From a virus, in the IMG/VR virus record IMGVR_UViG_3300020183_000128, positions 1 to 48,732 of that record: a stretch of DNA of 48,732 nucleotides; one strand, written 5' to 3'. Below the pieces are notes generated by a model that saw nothing but the letters and a program-made list of their open reading frames with translations, was not told the origin of the DNA and searched no databases. How positions within the stretch are numbered: position 1 is the stretch's first letter; each line of letters begins with the position of its first letter. The translations under genes were made by a program, and so were the position numbers. Below, piece after piece: positions 15,046 through 25,050 of the stretch.

Positions 15046-15725
15046 TTCTTTTTCTCCTCCTCAACGGAACGCAAATAAACCTGCAAGTTCTCCATGCGCT
15101 CTTTCTTTTGGTTGTATTTGTTCTGCTTCTTAATCTTGTCCATCTCAAACTCGCGCTGTTCCTCCGCCGCCTCTGCCGCAGTCTTCGTGCCGTTCATACG
15201 CCCGCGCTTGAGTTTCTCTGTTCTGTTCTTGAACGCCTGCGTTTTGTTGTCGTGTAGTTCACGGATGACAATGTTGTTCTTCCAAATCATGTTAAAGAAC
15301 CGATTACGCGCGAGGTTGTAAAGATTCTTGATGTAGTTATGCCGGAATGTCTCAACCATGTGTCTCACGGGAAATACCCCGTCCTCAGTCATGTAGTCGC
15401 AGTACACGCGGTTCACAATTCCGCGCACAAGTTCAAACTCCAAGTATTTCCCAAGCGGCCTTGCATGACCTGCTGTTACTTTAAGTCCAATCCTGCGTGA
15501 CAATATCTGCGCGTACTCCTCCCACTGCTCCTGATCGGAGTATGCACACGGCACAATCTTGGTTCTCTGCGCGCCGGTTGTGTATTTGTTGTGGATCTTT
15601 GCGGGTGCAAATTCCCTGCGCTCGGTTGCTTTGCGGATTGCGCGCCGGATCTTATTCCCGCGCCCGTCGAACTCCTCGATGATAACGAAATCATCTTCGT
15701 TGATATTTGTAATCTCTCTCGTCAC
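15042..15725 (-). CDS. Hypothetical protein with charged coiled-coil tail
   Basis: 227 residues from a GTG at 15725, chosen because GGAGGTG lies five bases upstream and the start overlaps the methyltransferase stop by four bases. The N-terminal half has no known domain; the last 60 residues are a highly charged helix (AEEQREFEMDKIKKQNKYNQKKERMENL), and the middle is rich in Arg, Asn and Phe (ETFRHNYIKNLYNLARNRFFNMIWKN). Nucleic-acid binding is plausible given its charge and its place between a methyltransferase and an HTH protein. Confidence 0.6.
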   Translation of the reverse strand: MTREITNINEDDFVIIEEFDGRGNKIRRAIRKATERREFAPAKIHNKYTTGAQRTKIVPCAYSDQEQWEEYAQILSRRIGLKVTAGHARPLGKYLEFELVRGIVNRVYCDYMTEDGVFPVRHMVETFRHNYIKNLYNLARNRFFNMIWKNNIVIRELHDNKTQAFKNRTEKLKRGRMNGTKTAAEAAEEQREFEMDKIKKQNKYNQKKERMENLQVYLRSVEEEKKK

Positions 15726-16210
15726 CAGACACCTCCGTGTGTTTTGACAAAAAATCCAAGGTGAGTGGTTCCCGTCGCGGCCCACCGCACGTTGTAAAAA
15801 ATGATTGCACTTCCGAACGGCACCCCGCCGCCCTTCTCGTCCGGCCTGACGTACTCGGTTCGACCCTTCAAAAACAGGATTCCGTCACAATGGCGGAAGA
15901 TAGCCTCCTGCCACGTTTTTGTTTCCAAGTTGGTTGCTTTGTATATGGCGACCACCTGAACGCCTCTGGCGGCCTCCTTTGCGGCCTTTTTGAACCAAGC
16001 CTCGGCTTGCGAGAACGGCGGGTTCATCCAGCACAGCTTCCCAAGCGGCCACTCCCTGCTCAACGCATCGTCGTTCACGGTCCAATACTCCGTAAACTTT
16101 GCGTTTTCTTCCGACGCACACACGTCGAAAGCGTCCTTAATGTTTAATTTTTCCAATAATTCTGGCGGTGTTCCCCATTCGTCGCATCTGCCGCCCTTGT
16201 AAATATCCAT
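15722..16210 (-). CDS. Phage DNA N6-adenine methyltransferase (Dam-type)
   Basis: 162 residues from the ATG at 16210 (GAGGG upstream). It starts with the DEWGTPPELLEKL motif of the phage Dam family (PF05869), carries the catalytic NPPF at 63-66 in LCWMNPPFSQ, and ends with a conserved beta strand set (PFGSAIIFYNV). Enzymes of this family methylate adenine, several at GATC, and protect phage DNA from restriction or time gene expression. The specificity here is not proven. The GATC-rich island at 18.3-21.3 kb makes GATC an attractive guess. First gene of a three-gene operon; the shared motif 16225-16240 lies just upstream. Confidence 0.88.
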   Translation of the reverse strand: MDIYKGGRCDEWGTPPELLEKLNIKDAFDVCASEENAKFTEYWTVNDDALSREWPLGKLCWMNPPFSQAEAWFKKAAKEAARGVQVVAIYKATNLETKTWQEAIFRHCDGILFLKGRTEYVRPDEKGGGVPFGSAIIFYNVRWAATGTTHLGFFVKTHGGVW

Positions 16211-16224
16211 GTTATCCCTCACTT

Positions 16225-16240
16225 TACTTCCTATATCGGA
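16225..16240. promoter_or_regulatory. Shared intergenic motif, copy 2
   Basis: TACTTCCTATATCGGA, one mismatch to 11815-11830. It lies between the adenine methyltransferase (minus) and the gene at 16260 (plus). On the minus strand TTGAAG lies 17 bases before GATATA, a weak promoter-like pair. Recurrence of the motif suggests a common regulator or phage promoter. Confidence 0.45.
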
Positions 16241-16259
16241 TGTTTTGGGGAAAACTTCA

Positions 16260-16484
16260 ATGATCACCTGCCTCGGCTATTACGGCACCCGCGACGGTCG
16301 GATTGTTAGGATCACTAAGATTTATCAGTCACAGCCCATCGCGGAAGGATATATCCGTGAAGGCGATAAAGATGTCCTCGCTGTCTGGAAGACCAAAGAT
16401 GGGCGAGTTTGGGAATGGAAATCAAGCCCGCGCGATATTATCGAGTACCTGTATGCCGATACCTCGAACGATTACAATTACTGA
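16260..16484 (+). CDS. Small hypothetical protein
   Basis: 74 residues from the ATG at 16260 (GGGGA eight bases upstream). Beta-rich sequence with many aromatic and charged residues (VLAVWKTKDGRVWEWKSS). It stands alone on the plus strand between two minus-strand operons and ends seven bases inside the convergent gene. No family is recognised. Confidence 0.6.
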   Translation: MITCLGYYGTRDGRIVRITKIYQSQPIAEGYIREGDKDVLAVWKTKDGRVWEWKSSPRDIIEYLYADTSNDYNY

Positions 16485-17999: not shown

Positions 18000-18179
18000 T
18001 CAGAGACCGTGACCGTGGAGATTTTCCTTACATTTCAATGGGTTGATAAAACCGTTACTTTTCAATAGCTTAACAAAACCGTTACTTTTCAATAGGTTAG
18101 CTAAGCCGCTGATATCAAACCGCTTTGCTAAGTTATTGATTTTAGGCCGCTTTGTTAAGCCGTTGATTTTATTCGACAC
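18000..18179 (-). CDS. Possible repeat peptide read through the 27-bp repeats
   Basis: A frame of 59 codons from a GTG at 18179 to a TGA at 18000 runs through the tandem repeats, giving five or six nine-residue units of the type K-I-N-G-L-x-K-x-x. AGGA lies about eleven bases upstream, further than ideal. A second open frame on the plus strand gives L-x-K-P-L-L-F-N-R units but lacks an ATG or GTG start. Because 27 is divisible by three, any open frame would look periodic, so coding is unproven. Confidence 0.25.
   Translation of the reverse strand: MSNKINGLTKRPKINNLAKRFDISGLANLLKSNGFVKLLKSNGFINPLKCKENLHGHGL
18016..18177. repeat. 27-bp tandem repeats
   Basis: Bases 17942-18394 hold no confident gene. 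Five exact-length 27-base units run from 18043, 18070, 18097, 18124 and 18151, with a degenerate sixth before them (18016-18042). The first two are nearly identical (AAACCGTTACTTTTCAATAG shared); the others drift but keep TAAGCCGTTGATTTT. The units are contiguous, so this is not a CRISPR array. They lie at the left border of the GATC-rich island and could be protein-binding iterons, a partition or promoter array, or coding repeats. Confidence 0.8.
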
Positions 18180-18394
18180 CGTTCAAACATCCTGATTTTC
18201 AAGTGATTTTTACGCTTTTCCAGCGTTCCGCCGGTCGATTTTGGGGTGTTTCGCCGATGCCCGATCCTGCAACACCTTGATCCCGTTCCGGATCGTCTTA
18301 AAGCATCAAAAACCACTAAAGTAAACTCAATTTTATGCCGATAAAGGATCGATCCGCCGGTGGTCGGTGGATCAAAATAGATTGGAGACGAGAG

Positions 18395-18547
18395 ATGTTA
18401 GAATTTTATGTGTTTACCGCTTTTATGATCGCGATCCCTATGATCCCTATCGTTAATTACTTTGTCGATAGTTATTTTGACAAAAAAATTGCAGATCAAA
18501 TGCATTTTACTCGCTTAGCAAAACAGGCAAAAAAATCATCAAAATAA
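18395..18547 (+). CDS. Small membrane protein at the start of the amidoligase island
   Basis: 50 residues from the ATG at 18395, with GGAG seven bases upstream; an ATG at 18335 in frame lacks such a site. One membrane helix (EFYVFTAFMIAIPMIPIVNYFV) followed by a basic tail ending KKSSK. It is the first gene of the island, 16 bases before the amidoligase, so it may anchor or partner it. No family is recognised. Confidence 0.55.
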   Translation: MLEFYVFTAFMIAIPMIPIVNYFVDSYFDKKIADQMHFTRLAKQAKKSSK

Positions 18548-18563
18548 ATCAGGAGATCGTATC

Positions 18564-19772
18564 ATGACAATACAACTAGCAAAGCAAAGTACATTACAAC
18601 AATTCCGCGATCTGATCCGTGTTGGTTTTGAGCTTGAGACGCAAAGCATCTCAGGCAAAAATTGGCGCGCTCTAAATAGTGTTAGCGTTCCCGTGACCAG
18701 AACACGGACACGGGAGAAAACAGATATTGCGGAATACAGATCCAGCATGGATCTGCACCAAGAGAACGCGATAAGGGCCAATGCTTCTGAGATCACAAAA
18801 AAAATCGGACTAAAACTTAGAAAATTGTACCGCGAAAATTCCGATGTTCGGGATCTTAAAATCTCTGTTTTTTCATCCTATTACGAACGGCATAGCCTAA
18901 AAACTTTCTCCGAATGTGTAAACAATTATTCACGATCCCGCCCGTTCGATTTTTACGATAACACTCCCGATCGCGTGTTGCTGGAATTGATCGCTCAGAC
19001 AAGAGCCAATCCCGCTCTCTGTGCAAAGATCAAAGCAATTTATGCATATCTGAGACGGCTCCAATTAGATCGCGTTGTCTCCCAATTGCCGGTCATCCAA
19101 TCGGAGACAGTCACCGAGGAATATACGGAAAATCAATCAATTCCGTTCGATCAATACATGACCGATCATCTCCACATTCCCGCCGATCTACTGAGAGATC
19201 TGAATTGGAAGCCTGACGGATCGGTGGATGGACCAGAGATCACAACGATGGGTCCTCAGACACTAAATCAGGCATCCGCTCATGCTCTTGCTCTGTTCAC
19301 GGCTCTGTCATCAGCTCAATTTACCGTGGACACTGGATGCTCGTTCCACATTCATGCTTCAATTATTGACTCAAAACCAAAGCACTCAAAACTATTTCAG
19401 GCATTTCTCATGAGAGAGATCCTGAACGATCCGCGCGTTCCCGCGTCAGTCCGTACACGCTGGAAAACCGATAGCCTCAATCGTTATTTTAATTTTGAAC
19501 TCGACGATCAGAAATATCGTTTTGTCGCGTATCGCGGGAACACATGGGAATTCCGGTGTTTCGGCAACATCGATAATTCAGCCGATGCTATCCTGTGTCT
19601 CAACATTGTGACCGAGGCATATCACAAAGCAATAACTAGACCCGTTCTCGAATTGTCGCTCCCAATCGGAACGTCATTTCAGCGGATCGCTTTGCACGCG
19701 GCTCGGAACGGAATGACCTACACTGAATCGTACAATGCTCTGGTCACAGCCGATCAATCCGAGGCAGCATAA
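18564..19772 (+). CDS. Amidoligase (glutamine-synthetase fold, COOH-NH2 ligase)
   Basis: 402 residues; AGGAG eight bases before the ATG. The signatures of Amidoligase_2-type enzymes are present: VGFELET near residue 20, a central GPEITT followed by a helix, then GCSFHIHASI near residue 260 as the metal and ATP-binding His motif, and EFRCFG near residue 330. Enzymes of this group join an amino group to a carboxylate with ATP. Phage members were predicted by comparative genomics (Iyer, Aravind and colleagues) to modify peptides, proteins or small molecules. The gene directly downstream encodes a glutamine amidotransferase, which could supply ammonia. Substrate unknown. The coding sequence is crowded with GATC. 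Confidence 0.82.
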   Translation: MTIQLAKQSTLQQFRDLIRVGFELETQSISGKNWRALNSVSVPVTRTRTREKTDIAEYRSSMDLHQENAIRANASEITKKIGLKLRKLYRENSDVRDLKISVFSSYYERHSLKTFSECVNNYSRSRPFDFYDNTPDRVLLELIAQTRANPALCAKIKAIYAYLRRLQLDRVVSQLPVIQSETVTEEYTENQSIPFDQYMTDHLHIPADLLRDLNWKPDGSVDGPEITTMGPQTLNQASAHALALFTALSSAQFTVDTGCSFHIHASIIDSKPKHSKLFQAFLMREILNDPRVPASVRTRWKTDSLNRYFNFELDDQKYRFVAYRGNTWEFRCFGNIDNSADAILCLNIVTEAYHKAITRPVLELSLPIGTSFQRIALHAARNGMTYTESYNALVTADQSEAA

Positions 19773-19799
19773 TTCAACACCCAGTTAGGAGATCTCAGC

Positions 19800-20675
19800 A
19801 TGTGTACAATTATCTCAACCGACACCGTGACCGATGCTCTGATCGAGCGCCTTGCCGCCGATCATGCATCCAATCCTCACGGAATAGCTATTGTCACAGT
19901 CGATCAATCATATAATTATCAAATTCTCAAAACCCATGATCTAAGTTCCGCAATTCTCATTCTCCGTTCCGGAGAATTCCGGCGTGTCTTTATCCACACC
20001 CGCAACGCGACAACATGGGCGCGCGGAGTTACTGCAACTCATGCTTTTATTCAAGGTGATTATATTGTTATGCATAATGGGATATTGTCATCCGCCGGTG
20101 CAAAATTGCATCCGGTCGACTCCATGATGCTCTGCGATCTGCTCAAAACAACGTCTCCCGACAAGATCCAGTCCGTTCTCTCAGCCCTCGGAGAGACTTT
20201 CGCAAATGTGTTTATTATCGACACAAAATCAGATCGGTTTTACATGATCCGCCAATCGTCAGGATCGTTGCACACTGACGGTTCAGGCAATTATTCCACC
20301 CATGCCTTCGGGCAGATCTCCGCTTCCGTTCCCGAAAATTCCGCAGAGACACATCGTCTCCGGCCTATTCCCGTCCCCGTTCCCGCTCCAGATCTCTCGG
20401 AAATCTATCACTCAAACTATTCCCGTACATTTTCTCCCGATGACTCGCCTCTCTCGGAGACAGAGAAAATTATGCTCAAGAACGATATTAGGATGATCTC
20501 CGATGCTGATTTTGTGGATCTTGTTTACGACTACGGCTTCCAAAAAAGATCTGTCCGTTCCCAAGAATTCCACGATCTGTGCAATTCAAAACAACGGAAA
20601 AAGCTCCGCGTTATCCAGCGTGACAATGATCGTTACGAGAGACGTTCGTCAATCAAAAACTGGGGTGCATTATGA
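19800..20675 (+). CDS. Class II glutamine amidotransferase
   Basis: 291 residues beginning MC, so Cys2 becomes the N-terminal nucleophile after Met removal, as in Ntn-hydrolase glutaminases. Further motifs match: HTRNATTWARG (glutamine binding, HTRxAT), THAF, MHNG (oxyanion hole), and VDSMMLCDLL corresponding to the conserved Asp region. The catalytic domain ends near residue 185; a Pro-rich linker and a charged C-terminal helical domain follow and are not recognised. It should release ammonia from glutamine for the neighbouring amidoligase. AGGAG precedes the ATG by eight bases, in a leader very like that of the amidoligase. Confidence 0.85.
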   Translation: MCTIISTDTVTDALIERLAADHASNPHGIAIVTVDQSYNYQILKTHDLSSAILILRSGEFRRVFIHTRNATTWARGVTATHAFIQGDYIVMHNGILSSAGAKLHPVDSMMLCDLLKTTSPDKIQSVLSALGETFANVFIIDTKSDRFYMIRQSSGSLHTDGSGNYSTHAFGQISASVPENSAETHRLRPIPVPVPAPDLSEIYHSNYSRTFSPDDSPLSETEKIMLKNDIRMISDADFVDLVYDYGFQKRSVRSQEFHDLCNSKQRKKLRVIQRDNDRYERRSSIKNWGAL

Positions 20676-20920
20676 AAATCAAAAACATCAGATCAACGTC
20701 TGACGTTATTGGGTGCAAAGCCGATGAAATAATGGACACAACGACGATCGATAAGTGCGTGACAATGCCTCAATACACGATCTTACACGCTCTCGTCACG
20801 GAATTGGTCAAAATCAATTGTCCGCGCGTTCAGATCAAGAGAATTATCAACACGATCGTGTATGCAATTATTGACGCTGAGGCTAAGGCTGAGTCAGACA
20901 GAAAGGCGGGTGAAGAATGA
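20672..20920 (+). CDS. Small hypothetical protein of the amidoligase island
   Basis: 82 residues, helical, with three Cys and an acidic C-terminal tail. Its ATG overlaps the amidotransferase stop by four bases, so it is translationally coupled and probably belongs to the same system. Candidates are an adaptor or regulatory subunit. No family is recognised. Confidence 0.6.
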   Translation: MKIKNIRSTSDVIGCKADEIMDTTTIDKCVTMPQYTILHALVTELVKINCPRVQIKRIINTIVYAIIDAEAKAESDRKAGEE

Positions 20921-21270
20921 CAACACAATACACAATAGACTGCACAGGCGATGCCTGTGTTGGTGATGAAGTTGAATTTGAGCGCGCAATTTTCTCAGGT
21001 TCGTTCCGGAAACCAAAATTTGTTGGGACCGAGACGATCCGAGGAAAGATCATCTTTGACTCTTACGGAGCGCAAAAACAACAACACACTTTCACGCTGT
21101 TGCTGGAGAACGGCGAAAAAACATTGATCAAGGGAAGAAACCTGTACCGGAATGGGTGCAGACGAAAACCTTGGGATGACGAAGGCAAGAGATCACTCGT
21201 TCTTGCCGAAAAACATGAGCGCGGGAATTGCGCTCGAAACGCAAGAGAAAACAGGAGAACATTTCTATGA
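20917..21270 (+). CDS. Mobile-element-type small beta protein with GRNLYRNG motif
   Basis: 117 residues. The pattern VGDEVEFERAIFSGSFRKPKF..G, then D-S-Y-G-A-x-x-Q-Q-H-T-F-T, then K-G-R-N-L-Y-R-N-G and EKHERG...AR is one I recall from small proteins of plasmids and integrative elements; their function is not known to me. The first half reads as a beta barrel and the last third as a basic helix. It is coupled by four-base overlaps to both neighbours and so sits in the same operon as the amidoligase. Confidence 0.65.
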   Translation: MTTQYTIDCTGDACVGDEVEFERAIFSGSFRKPKFVGTETIRGKIIFDSYGAQKQQHTFTLLLENGEKTLIKGRNLYRNGCRRKPWDDEGKRSLVLAEKHERGNCARNARENRRTFL

Positions 21271-21491
21271 CAGCCCTATTTTCCACCCATGACACATTCA
21301 AAGATCTACGCGGGACACTGTATTGGTCCGATGCACCCCGTCCGCGCGTCATCTGGCGCGTGTATGATGACCTACGCTCCGCTCTGCTATCCATGACACC
21401 CATTGCCGAGTACAAGCGAGTGTCTGTTATTGCGAGATACCATGACCCTAAACATCCGCGTCTCCGCTTTGTCCTGGTCCTAAAAAGATAG
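21267..21491 (+). CDS. Small basic hypothetical protein, end of the island
   Basis: 74 residues from the ATG at 21267 (AGGAG nine bases upstream), overlapping the previous stop by four bases. Basic, beta-rich C terminus (YKRVSVIARYHDPKHPRLRFVLVLKR). No family is recognised. It is the last gene before the strong terminator at 21522. Confidence 0.6.
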   Translation: MTALFSTHDTFKDLRGTLYWSDAPRPRVIWRVYDDLRSALLSMTPIAEYKRVSVIARYHDPKHPRLRFVLVLKR

Positions 21492-21521: not shown

Positions 21522-21553
21522 GCCTGCTCCGTTGCTCGGAGCGGGCTTTTTTG
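21522..21553 (+). terminator. Strong rho-independent terminator closing the island
   Basis: A ten-base-pair stem (GCCTGCTCCG with CGGAGCGGGC, one G-T pair), five-base loop, and six T. It separates the island from the virion gene block. Confidence 0.9.
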
Positions 21554-21943: not shown

Positions 21944-22627
21944 ATGGAAATCAAGACAGAGAGCAATGCCAACATAAAACGCAGAATCCTCGACGATCTG
22001 GCAAACGGCACAATGCTCAAAGAGACCCTCGCAAATCTCAAAATCAGCCCAGAAACCTTCATGTCTCTCAGAGACGACCCGGAGTTCGACACAAGCATTC
22101 GTGCTCTCCAGTCACGGATATTGCCCAACGACTTTGCCGAGGCGAAGCTCAAGAGGCTTTTTGAGCGTGGAGAGGCTGACTCGGAGCGTTACGTCGAAAA
22201 GATAACGCCTTCGACAGCGATGCAGATAGCCGAGAAGATGGGAGATGCTCTTTCACGGGGTCTGACCTACGAGCAGGCGTGCATTTATGTGAGCGTCTCA
22301 CCGCTGGATATCCGGAAGTACGCAGAGAAGAACCCGGATTTCTTTAAGGCACTGAACGAAGCCGAGATGCGCTTCTCACTTTTCCTCATTGACAAGATCA
22401 TGCGCCACGCACAGGACGACTGGAAAGCTGCTTCATGGTTACTCGAACGCAAGTATCCAGAGAAGTGGTCGGATGTGAAGCGCGTGGATATCAAGCAGCG
22501 CGCGGCGATTGAGAAGACAACCCAAATCCGCGACCAAAAGCAGATGAAGGGGAAGATATCGACAGTCGATGTGCAGAAGATGAGTGACGAAGAACTCAGA
22601 AAGATGCTCGAAAGTTCACGGTCATAA
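21944..22627 (+). CDS. terS: Terminase small subunit
   Basis: 227 residues. The N-terminal half has two HTH-like segments (NGTMLKETLANLKISPETFMSLR and GLTYEQACIYVSVSPLDIRKYAEKNPDFF). The DDWKAASWLLERKYPEKW motif near residue 165 is typical of phage small terminases. The C-terminal tail is charged and helical, suited to contacting the large subunit. It recognises the packaging site and loads the motor. The start has AGGA nine bases upstream. It begins the long plus-strand virion block. Confidence 0.85.
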   Translation: MEIKTESNANIKRRILDDLANGTMLKETLANLKISPETFMSLRDDPEFDTSIRALQSRILPNDFAEAKLKRLFERGEADSERYVEKITPSTAMQIAEKMGDALSRGLTYEQACIYVSVSPLDIRKYAEKNPDFFKALNEAEMRFSLFLIDKIMRHAQDDWKAASWLLERKYPEKWSDVKRVDIKQRAAIEKTTQIRDQKQMKGKISTVDVQKMSDEELRKMLESSRS

Positions 22628-22671
22628 CGAAGGAACTTTTTTGATGACCAAGCGCGGCTGAAAGGTAAGAA

Positions 22672-23619
22672 ATGCGATGTTTGGATCTTTTCAGCGGAAT
22701 CGGCGGAATTGCGTTGGCACTGAGGCCATACGTTCAGACTGTCGCCTATTGCGAAATTGAACCGTATTGCCAAGCAGTTCTTTTGGAAAGGATGCAATCA
22801 GGTGAATTGGATAGTGCTCCAATCTGGGACGACGTTACAACACTCAACAGCGAAATACTCGACACTGACATCGACATCATTTGTGGCGGCTTTCCCTGCC
22901 AAGACGTTAGCGTCGCAGGAAGGCAAGCTGGAATTGCTGAAGGAACAAGAAGCGGTCTTTTCTTTCACGTCATGCGACTTGTTCGGGAATTTAGACCGTC
23001 CTTTGTGTTCCTCGAAAACGTCTCAGCCATTTGCAATAACGGACTTGATGTCGTCCTCAAGGAAATTGCCGCAGCAGGGTATCATGCACAATGGTGTTGT
23101 TTATCCGCTGCCGAAGTCGGCGCACCGCACAAGCGAAACAGGTGGTGGTTATTGGCCTACGCCGACGGCACGCGACTACAAAGACAACGGATCGCCATCA
23201 GAATTTATTCGCAACACGCCTCCATTGACAGCATCAGCGATCATTTGTGGCCAGCAGGCAAAGGCGAACAACACGCGCACGAACCAAAACGCATTGTGGC
23301 CTACGCCAAACACCCTAGACGGAAACCTACCAAGACCGAGGGAAGCACTGATCAAGCAATTTCAGATCGCGAGAAAGGGCAGAACCGCACCAGCAAACTT
23401 ACGCGAAGCTGTGCACCCGGGTTGTCACCCTCAGAACCTTACAGACCCGACGCTGTACCCAGTCAATCTTGTCTTGAACCCGGAGTGGGTCGAAATGCTG
23501 ATGGGATACCGCACAGGACACACAGAATTAGAGCACTTGGAAATGCTGTTGTGCCTCAAGCGGCGCGTAAAGCGTTTGAAACACTAATGCTTACACAGCC
23601 GACAGAGGAACTTTGGTAG
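22672..23619 (+). CDS. DNA cytosine-C5 methyltransferase
   Basis: 315 residues. Motif I is LDLFSGIGG, motif IV is GGFPCQ with catalytic Cys76, motif VI is ENV at 115-117, motif VIII is GAPHKRNRWW, and motifs IX/X are represented by HRIRALGNAVVPQ near the C terminus. The part between about residues 165 and 280 is the target-recognition region and is unusually polar. It should protect phage DNA from restriction; the target is unknown. It is inserted between the terminase genes, with its stop one base before the large-subunit start. A second open frame with its own conserved-looking motifs runs through it (see 23048-23587). Confidence 0.88.
   Translation: MRCLDLFSGIGGIALALRPYVQTVAYCEIEPYCQAVLLERMQSGELDSAPIWDDVTTLNSEILDTDIDIICGGFPCQDVSVAGRQAGIAEGTRSGLFFHVMRLVREFRPSFVFLENVSAICNNGLDVVLKEIAAAGYHAQWCCLSAAEVGAPHKRNRWWLLAYADGTRLQRQRIAIRIYSQHASIDSISDHLWPAGKGEQHAHEPKRIVAYAKHPRRKPTKTEGSTDQAISDREKGQNRTSKLTRSCAPGLSPSEPYRPDAVPSQSCLEPGVGRNADGIPHRTHRIRALGNAVVPQAARKAFETLMLTQPTEELW
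23048..23587 (+). CDS. Overlapping frame within the methyltransferase gene, conserved-looking
   Basis: This frame, +1 relative to the methyltransferase, is open from 22757 to 23587. From an ATG at 23048 (or 23084) it gives 179 residues containing GIMHNGVVYPLP, YWPTPTARDYKD, a second WPTP, and LNPEWVEMLMGYRTGHTELE. I recognise these as motifs that recur in phage proteins annotated beside or fused to cytosine methyltransferases. Here they are encoded on the same bases as the target-recognition region and motif X of the enzyme. Ribosome binding sites are weak. It may be an overprinted gene, a product of frameshifting, or a fossil of an alternative reading. Confidence 0.45.
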   Translation: MSSSRKLPQQGIMHNGVVYPLPKSAHRTSETGGGYWPTPTARDYKDNGSPSEFIRNTPPLTASAIICGQQAKANNTRTNQNALWPTPNTLDGNLPRPREALIKQFQIARKGRTAPANLREAVHPGCHPQNLTDPTLYPVNLVLNPEWVEMLMGYRTGHTELEHLEMLLCLKRRVKRLKH

Positions 23620-25050
23620 GTGAAATTAACCAACGAAGAATTTCTACAAATCCAACTTGAGTTGAGGAAGCGTGACCTGCACAGGTTCGTAGCCTCCACG
23701 GTTCCTAATTTCTCAGACGGTTGGTTGTACCATCAGCTTTGCGAAAAGCTGCAAAAGTTCGCAGAAGATGTCCGTGAGAAGAAAAGCCCGCGACTGATTG
23801 TGTGCATGCCCCCGCGACACCTTAAAAGCGAGACCATCTCAGTACGGTTCCCTGTTTGGGCGATGCTCAATAATCCGGGGTGGGAGATTATTGTCTCGAC
23901 CTACGGCTCGAATCTCTCCGACCGTCTTTCACGGAGAGCACGTTCACTGATGACGGAGCTTTATATCCAAACACTTTGGCCGACAGCGCGCTTAGACCCG
24001 AACCAATTTTCCGTGAAGGAATGGAAGATGTTTCACGGGTCGAACTTTGCGATACCGACGACCTACAAAGCGGTGGGCAGGGGTGGTGCGTTGACGGGCA
24101 GCGGTGCGCATATCCTTATTTGCGATGACCTGATTAAAGACCAGGCCGAGGCAGACAGCCCACGGGTGCGGGATGATATGTGGCATTGGTTCAACTCAAC
24201 GGCACGAACACGTTTGACACCCGGTGGCGGGATCATTGTTGTGAACACGCGCTGGCACAAGGACGATATTACGGGCCGGTTGATTGCAGAGAGTGATGCA
24301 AAGACGGGCGACCACTGGGAGGTGATTAACTTCCCTGCGATTGCGGAGTTTGATGAGCCGTTCAGGAAGATGGGTGAGGCACTGCACCCGGAAAGGTTCG
24401 ACCTAGCCGCGTTGGAGAAGATGAAAAAAGCGTTGCCGAACCGTTGGTGGGATGCGCTTTATCAGCAGCGTCCTGCTTCGGTGGGTGGTGAGATATTGAA
24501 GGCGCGCTGGTTTAGGGAGTTTGACGTAGCGCCTGAGATGGATCTGATCATCCAAGCGTGGGACCTTCGTTTTTCACGGTCACAGACAGCAGGCTCATCG
24601 TATGTGGTGGGTCAGGTTTGGGGTGCGCGCGGCTCGAAGCGTTATCTTCTTGACGAGATGCGCGGGCGATGGAGCTATACTGAGAGCAGAGATGCTATCA
24701 GGGAGATGTGCGAGCGTTGGCCGCAGGCGACGGCGGTGTTGGTTGAAAATAAAGCCAACGGACCGGCGATTGAGAGTGACCTTGAGGGAGAAGTTTCTGG
24801 TCTTGTGCTGTACGATCCGAGGGGTGACAAGATACAGCGCCTTGAGCGGGTATCACCACTGATTCGCGCGGGCGATATTTACTTACCGCCCTACGATCAG
24901 GCACCGTGGATAAACGATTGGTTGGGTGAGGTGTGCGGTTTCCCGCGTGCGCCGAACGACGACCGCGTGGATGCGATGAGCATGGCACTTGCATATTTGC
25001 ATGAGCTAAAGAGCGAGTTGGGAGCGGTACAGGCAATGCACCTCTTGTGA
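23620..25050 (+). CDS. terL: Terminase large subunit
   Basis: 476 residues from a GTG directly after the methyltransferase stop. The ATPase domain has a Walker A-like MPPRHLKSE at 63-71 and Walker B ILICDDL near residue 165, with a coupling-like VVNTRWH further on. The nuclease domain shows QAWDLRF, VLVENKANG and DDRVDAMSMA, the three acidic positions of the RNase H-like fold. It drives DNA into the prohead and cuts it. The length is normal for this type. Confidence 0.93.
   Translation: MKLTNEEFLQIQLELRKRDLHRFVASTVPNFSDGWLYHQLCEKLQKFAEDVREKKSPRLIVCMPPRHLKSETISVRFPVWAMLNNPGWEIIVSTYGSNLSDRLSRRARSLMTELYIQTLWPTARLDPNQFSVKEWKMFHGSNFAIPTTYKAVGRGGALTGSGAHILICDDLIKDQAEADSPRVRDDMWHWFNSTARTRLTPGGGIIVVNTRWHKDDITGRLIAESDAKTGDHWEVINFPAIAEFDEPFRKMGEALHPERFDLAALEKMKKALPNRWWDALYQQRPASVGGEILKARWFREFDVAPEMDLIIQAWDLRFSRSQTAGSSYVVGQVWGARGSKRYLLDEMRGRWSYTESRDAIREMCERWPQATAVLVENKANGPAIESDLEGEVSGLVLYDPRGDKIQRLERVSPLIRAGDIYLPPYDQAPWINDWLGEVCGFPRAPNDDRVDAMSMALAYLHELKSELGAVQAMHLL

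Follow-up and report, generated by a model that had tools for sequence, protein, structure and literature searches.

A divergent two-gene module of a predicted amidoligase and glutamine amidotransferase in uncultured phages

The stretch of DNA analysed here (the window) is the whole 48,732-base IMG/VR virus record IMGVR_UViG_3300020183_000128, which carries a tailed-phage gene set. Immediately before its terminase genes lies an operon that includes consecutive genes for a putative amidoligase (AL) and a putative glutamine amidotransferase (GAT), separated by 27 bases and each preceded by an AGGAG leader:

18564-19772, + strand: AL, 402 aa, predicted divergent amidoligase of the glutamine-synthetase fold (Amidoligase_2-like)
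19800-20675, + strand: GAT, 291 aa, predicted class II (N-terminal nucleophile, Ntn) glutamine amidotransferase-like protein with an MC N-terminus

A preliminary description of this DNA had read the two as a glutamine-synthetase-fold amidoligase followed by an N-terminal-cysteine glutaminase, and both profiles and predicted folds support that reading. Their most likely role is a joint one, the formation or removal of an amide bond.

Both are extremely divergent in sequence and are missed completely by standard annotation. Taken alone, the window AL and GAT have no significant match in Pfam, PHROGs (best 0.1), NCBIfam or the PDB sequences, BLAST and tblastn against annotated phages return nothing usable so that intermediates are required, and scans of IMG/VR with the single window proteins find no relatives. 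A scan with the large terminase subunit (TerL) did succeed: it brought up the related phages L004 and L006, both of which carry AL and GAT at the same place (about 44% identity to the window for AL; 64% and 55% for GAT). Profiles built from the L004 and L006 proteins reached L016 (187 kb), L017 (40 kb), L022, L024, L025, L027 and L028, which completes a related set of nine uncultured virus contigs of 15-187 kb. Two members are incomplete, AL P0024 being cut at its 5' end by the contig end and GAT P0027 being truncated, and neither represents a loss. Among the GAT relatives, P0019 does pick up annotated phage amidotransferases in a tblastn search. For AL, the GTDB contigs searched held no close cellular relative, which argues against recent capture of a host metabolic gene. 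This bears on the idea that the pair serves as an auxiliary metabolic module, moving nitrogen between glutamine or ammonia and amino acids and aiding host or phage growth. A contribution to nitrogen and amino acid metabolism has been proposed for a deep-sea Planctomycetes phage with an amidoligase, a glutamine amidotransferase, a glutathione synthase and a gamma-glutamylcyclotransferase, but that claim appears to be based on whole-phage growth effects and not on enzyme assays (PMC10945688), and we consider such a role improbable for the present pair.

The assignment of AL draws on motifs, profiles and predicted structure. The protein contains GFELE (18624-18638), DGSV (19215-19226), CSFHIH (19338-19355) and WEFR (19545-19556), and the patterns GxExE, D-x-S...E, C-S-(F/Y)-H-I-H and ExR are kept in all relatives complete there, with DCSI replacing DGSV in one. 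An insert of about 190 aa separates GFELE from DGSV and is absent from the L017 homologue. Amidoligase_2 is the sole family matching two AL members, and is the best Pfam match of the relative P0013 (E 0.0048). Run against the whole genomes of LUZ24, phiEco32 and UFV-P2, the AL profile recovers the amidoligase of UFV-P2 (2e-4), and hhalign of the AL family with the amidoligases of these three phages scores 45 against a column-shuffled maximum of 19 (swapped controls give 10-14). The AlphaFold model has a mean predicted local distance difference test score (pLDDT) of 76 with the core above 90. Its best 50 PDB matches in Foldseek are glutamine synthetases or their relatives (probability about 1, E from 2e-5), and in BFVD the search returns named phage amidoligases, including that of Pseudomonas phage tf. 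Together, motifs and model establish AL as a predicted glutamine-synthetase-fold ligase with conserved acidic, HxH and ExR residues.

GAT can be assigned with the same kinds of evidence. Its motifs are Cys2 (19803-19805), HTRNAT (19995-20012), HNG (20073-20081) and VDS (20115-20123). The MC N-terminus is found in 10/10 GATs, with a TTG start in L017, and HxRx(A/T)T, HNG and VDS are conserved wherever the GAT sequence is complete. We take the Arg, the Asn-Gly oxyanion hole and the Asp to be glutamine-site residues, by analogy with GlmS. PHROG 4736, whose name is identical to that of LUZ24 gp19 and phiEco32 gp83, matches six of the ten GAT members (best 7e-9) and GATase_6 matches relatives (3e-4); neither matches the window GAT. 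Among PDB sequences the GAT profile selects PurF and GlmS, while its sole matches in the genomes of phages with the known pair are phiEco32 gp83 (3e-14), LUZ24 gp19 (1e-8) and the UFV-P2 protein (3e-7); hhalign with these three proteins scores 78 against a column-shuffled maximum of 23, with swapped controls again at 10-14. The AlphaFold model (mean pLDDT 82, core above 90) matches EgtC best in Foldseek, and also GlmS, PurF and AsnB. On this evidence GAT is predicted to be a class II glutaminase-fold protein that retains the N-terminal Cys, the Arg, the Asn-Gly and the Asp. The preliminary description had staked its reading on the catalytic Cys2 of GAT and the His motif of AL, and both Cys2 and HxH are kept in all relatives complete there. 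A PurF-type role in phosphoribosyl transfer was considered for GAT and rejected, as the protein has no second catalytic domain. Residues 221-291 (20460-20675) form a C-terminal helical extension with the pattern DF[VL]DLVYD...KQ...L that is common to the window, L004, L006 and L016 (10246-11445); it has no known relatives and does not occur in the GATs of L017, L022, L024 and L025.

The two genes also travel together. GAT lies immediately 3' of AL in 9/9 related contigs, the spacing ranging from -1 to 27 bases, and the AL and GAT distance matrices correlate across the nine phages (Mantel r = 0.90, with 1/20,000 permutations as high), a correlation that partly reflects the phages' common descent and therefore shows co-inheritance and not physical interaction. 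Constant adjacency and correlated divergence argue that AL-GAT is a two-gene module. In L016 (7710-10246) two tandem, diverged AL genes precede a single GAT, suggesting two substrates or a heteromeric ligase, and in L017 a terminator-like hairpin directly 3' of AL-GAT is followed by the next operon. The pair lies just upstream of the terminase genes in the window (21944-25050) and also, with the terminases judged by position and size only, in L022 (4994-7487), L024 (5949-8418) and L025 (11043-13533); terminase sizes in these phages differ (476 vs about 547 aa). It could be argued that AL and GAT are unrelated accessory genes, neighbours by chance and without joint function, and the gene surroundings beyond the pair do vary between phages. 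However, the same-order adjacency extends over contigs from 15 to 187 kb, including the one with tandem ALs, the two proteins diverge in step, and LUZ24 and phiEco32 share the order, so that we give chance hardly any credence. A joint function of AL and GAT is strongly supported by these gene comparisons.

As to what that function may be, we lean towards AL and GAT forming a self-contained two-protein glutamine-dependent amidotransferase. GAT would split glutamine into glutamate and ammonia, and AL would consume ATP in converting a carboxylate first into an activated acyl phosphate and then into a carboxamide. More speculatively, the substrate could be a carboxylate on a host envelope peptide, altered during infection, and the change might exclude other phages or adjust lysis. 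The fuller proposal, in which a ligase of the glutamine-synthetase fold and a class II glutaminase are the separate subunits of a stand-alone amidating enzyme that has spread among uncultured phages and modifies host envelope peptide, is tentative. We know of no biochemically characterised glutamine-synthetase-fold ligase that is fed by a separate class II glutaminase. MurT/GatD, which consists of a Mur-ligase fold and a class I glutaminase, is not homologous to AL-GAT. The proposed mechanism is like that of MurT/GatD in that a glutaminase and an ATP-dependent ligase amidate a glutamate carboxyl of peptidoglycan, as outlined in PMC3267633.

Several points weigh against the amidation reading. 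In the literature on phage amidoligase/GAT cassettes we found no biochemical test of any phage member, and nothing in the window or its relatives indicates one particular substrate. At the curated cut-off of 22 bits for Amidoligase_2 (PF12224) the window AL gives no match and its relatives reach at most 17.2 bits, and the AL profile alone fails to find the LUZ24 or phiEco32 amidoligase in their genomes. The AL model matches glutamine synthetase with low TM-scores (template modelling scores) of about 0.3, for which the low-confidence insert is probably part of the reason. To these come the share of common descent in the Mantel correlation and the fact that the GAT fold is also used by a gamma-glutamyl hydrolase, EgtC, the top Foldseek match.

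The last point leads to a different scheme, in which AL would join the gamma-carboxyl of glutamate to a substrate amine and GAT, acting as a gamma-glutamyl hydrolase, would later remove the glutamate. The model for this is ergothioneine synthesis, where EgtA (gamma-glutamylcysteine synthetase) adds and EgtC removes gamma-glutamate (PMC4621440). EgtA/EgtC resembles AL-GAT in combining a gamma-glutamyl ligase with a partner of the class II amidotransferase fold, EgtC being the nearest solved fold to GAT. It differs in that its pathway has five enzymes, among them EgtC as a hydrolase, whereas no EgtB, EgtD or EgtE is seen beside AL-GAT. The parts would fit adding and removing glutamate almost as well as they fit amidation: the EgtC structures at the head of the GAT Foldseek list include its substrate complex, and the Arg and Asp that hold the glutamyl head are kept in GAT, which suits glutamine and a gamma-glutamyl amide equally. 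On the other hand, the scores of EgtC and of the glutaminase domain of GlmS are almost the same and the fold therefore does not discriminate, the sequence profile selects PurF and GlmS, and a ligase and a hydrolase would run a futile cycle without an intervening step, for which AL-GAT has no conserved third enzyme. We regard this scheme as the main alternative to amidation, though less likely.

The amidation reading can also be set against what is known from other phages. An amidoligase-GAT pair has been described in LUZ24-like (PMC3890496), OM43 (PMC10580990), PA11-like (PMC6209634) and RIO1-like (PMC5498523) phages. LUZ24 (gp18-gp19), phiEco32 (gp84-gp83) and UFV-P2 (ORF23-ORF25, with one HNH gene between the two) carry the same two families in the same order as here. 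In the LUZ24/phiEco32 type the pair sits in a larger cassette with a COOH-NH2 ligase, a RimK-like ATP-grasp protein and a gamma-glutamyl cyclotransferase, whereas here there are two genes, and GAT is shorter, 222-399 aa here vs 486-676 aa in the LUZ24/phiEco32/UFV-P2 type. The COOH-NH2 ligase (PF14395, detected in LUZ24, phiEco32 and UFV-P2 as a positive control) and RimK (PF08443) were not found in the window or the nine relatives, and gamma-glutamyl cyclotransferase (PF06094) is absent from them except for a distant locus in the 187-kb L016; because the records may be incomplete, the absence of the other cassette enzymes is provisional. In RIO1-like podoviruses such as PSA-HP1 a "peptidoglycan modification cassette" acting against superinfection has been put forward as a hypothesis (PMC5498523). 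That cassette likewise contains an amidoligase and a GAT and is proposed to change the host surface, but it differs in having seven genes and belonging to podoviruses, and its function is hypothetical as well. The preliminary description had presented the operon as a candidate new modification system, which goes too far, given that the three phages already carry both genes and the cassette hypothesis is published. The pairing is thus known from other phages, and what is novel here is an extremely high sequence divergence in a system cut down to two genes. A further likeness concerns a calcineurin-like phosphoesterase, which OM43 phages with the pair also carry (PMC10580990): the window has one at 712-1446 on the minus strand (Pfam match), and similar-looking frames occur in L022 (582-1445, minus) and L024 (1930-2733, minus).

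A modified DNA base had been suggested earlier as one possible product. Amidoligases have been discussed in general for hypermodified bases, and a Pfam scan of the window finds a Dam-type methyltransferase (15722-16267, minus strand) and a C5-cytosine methyltransferase. However, these enzymes account for ordinary methylation, no thymidylate-synthase homologue was found in the window or in 8/9 relatives (the exception being the 187-kb L016) although positive controls worked, and no kinase, glycosyltransferase or other base-modification gene is seen beside the pair. The suggestion thus finds no support, and that AL-GAT modifies a base of the phage genome is in our view very improbable. The same scan finds a Prim-Pol primase, a RuvC-like resolvase, a small-terminase-like protein and an amidase-type endolysin; TerL was identified by tblastn, and portal, capsid and tape measure were read from frames.

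Phage amidoligase cassettes have been annotated for more than 10 years, and we found no proven substrate in the literature. With at least five enzymes each, those of LUZ24 and phiEco32 are difficult to dissect. The occurrence of a two-gene version in phage contigs of 15-187 kb points to AL and GAT as the functional core, and provides a small system suited to expression, purification and assay. In addition, the pair represents a family overlooked by standard annotation.

Around the pair, the operon contains the following features:

18395-18547, + strand: small gene 5' of AL, 50 aa from ATG 18395 (70 aa from 18335), one hydrophobic stretch
20672-20920, + strand: small protein P0004, 82 aa, ATGA overlap with GAT
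20917-21270, + strand: small protein P0005, 117 aa, DUF7699 (PF24766), ATGA overlap at both ends
21267-21491, + strand: small protein P0006, 74 aa, AGGAG leader
21522-21546, + strand: intrinsic terminator closing the operon, 10 pairs, T tail

The three genes 3' of GAT are chained by ATGA stop/start overlaps at 20672, 20917 and 21267 and lead into the terminator, a strong one, so that both their coupling and the closing terminator hold as previously described. Other parts of that description need correction. The operon was taken to start at 18240, which is about 95 bases ahead of any gene. Similar AGGAG leaders were claimed throughout; they are indeed present on AL, GAT and the 21267 gene, but the leaders of the 20672 and 20917 genes are weaker and ATG 18335 has none. 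The internal ATG 18395 has TTGGAG, and the start of the small gene 5' of AL is probably better placed there on this sequence evidence. A promoter scan gave a result at chance level.

Four small genes had been counted as part of the system, and comparison of neighbourhoods across phages supports this for one of them. The 18335, 20672 and 20917 genes have no counterpart in L004 and L006, the two nearest relatives, and thus lie outside the conserved system. For the first of these (18395-18547 when read from the later ATG) no relatives were found, and its membership of the operon is doubtful. P0004 matched no known family; P0005, whose gene is coupled into the operon, matches DUF7699 in Pfam with E 9e-18. 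The fourth, P0006, is encoded directly 3' of GAT in both L004 and L006 (78% and about 40% identity), and a small protein occupies the same place in the LUZ24/phiEco32 type. Compared with the LUZ24 gp20 family, P0006 reaches a score of 25, where shuffling gives at most 14. Among 52 small phage proteins gp20 comes out first, with phiEco32 gp82 only fifth; this is suggestive of a weak resemblance between P0006 and the small protein 3' of the LUZ24 GAT.

Across the AL operon (18263-21303) the tetranucleotide GATC has a density of about 18 per kb, a six-fold excess over the 2.8 per kb elsewhere in the window. Compared with synonymous-codon shuffles, AL has 22 copies vs 12.5 (s.d. 1.9) and GAT 16 vs 8.7 (s.d. 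1.8), while TerL, portal, tape measure and most other genes tested fall below their shuffles. A weaker enrichment over the same genes is seen in L004 (12 per kb) and L006 (7-10 per kb), and not in L016, L022 or L025. Foreign origin of the cassette and regulatory use of GATC are candidate explanations.

The region that separates the leftward genes from the AL operon holds degenerate 27-bp tandem repeats, at 18028-18171 in the window, 6080-6232 in L006 and 6224-6355 in L004, where the copies are 52-53 apart. The array could be either iteron-like or a 9-residue repeat within a small minus-strand frame. The minimum of the cumulative GC skew falls near 20-24 kb.

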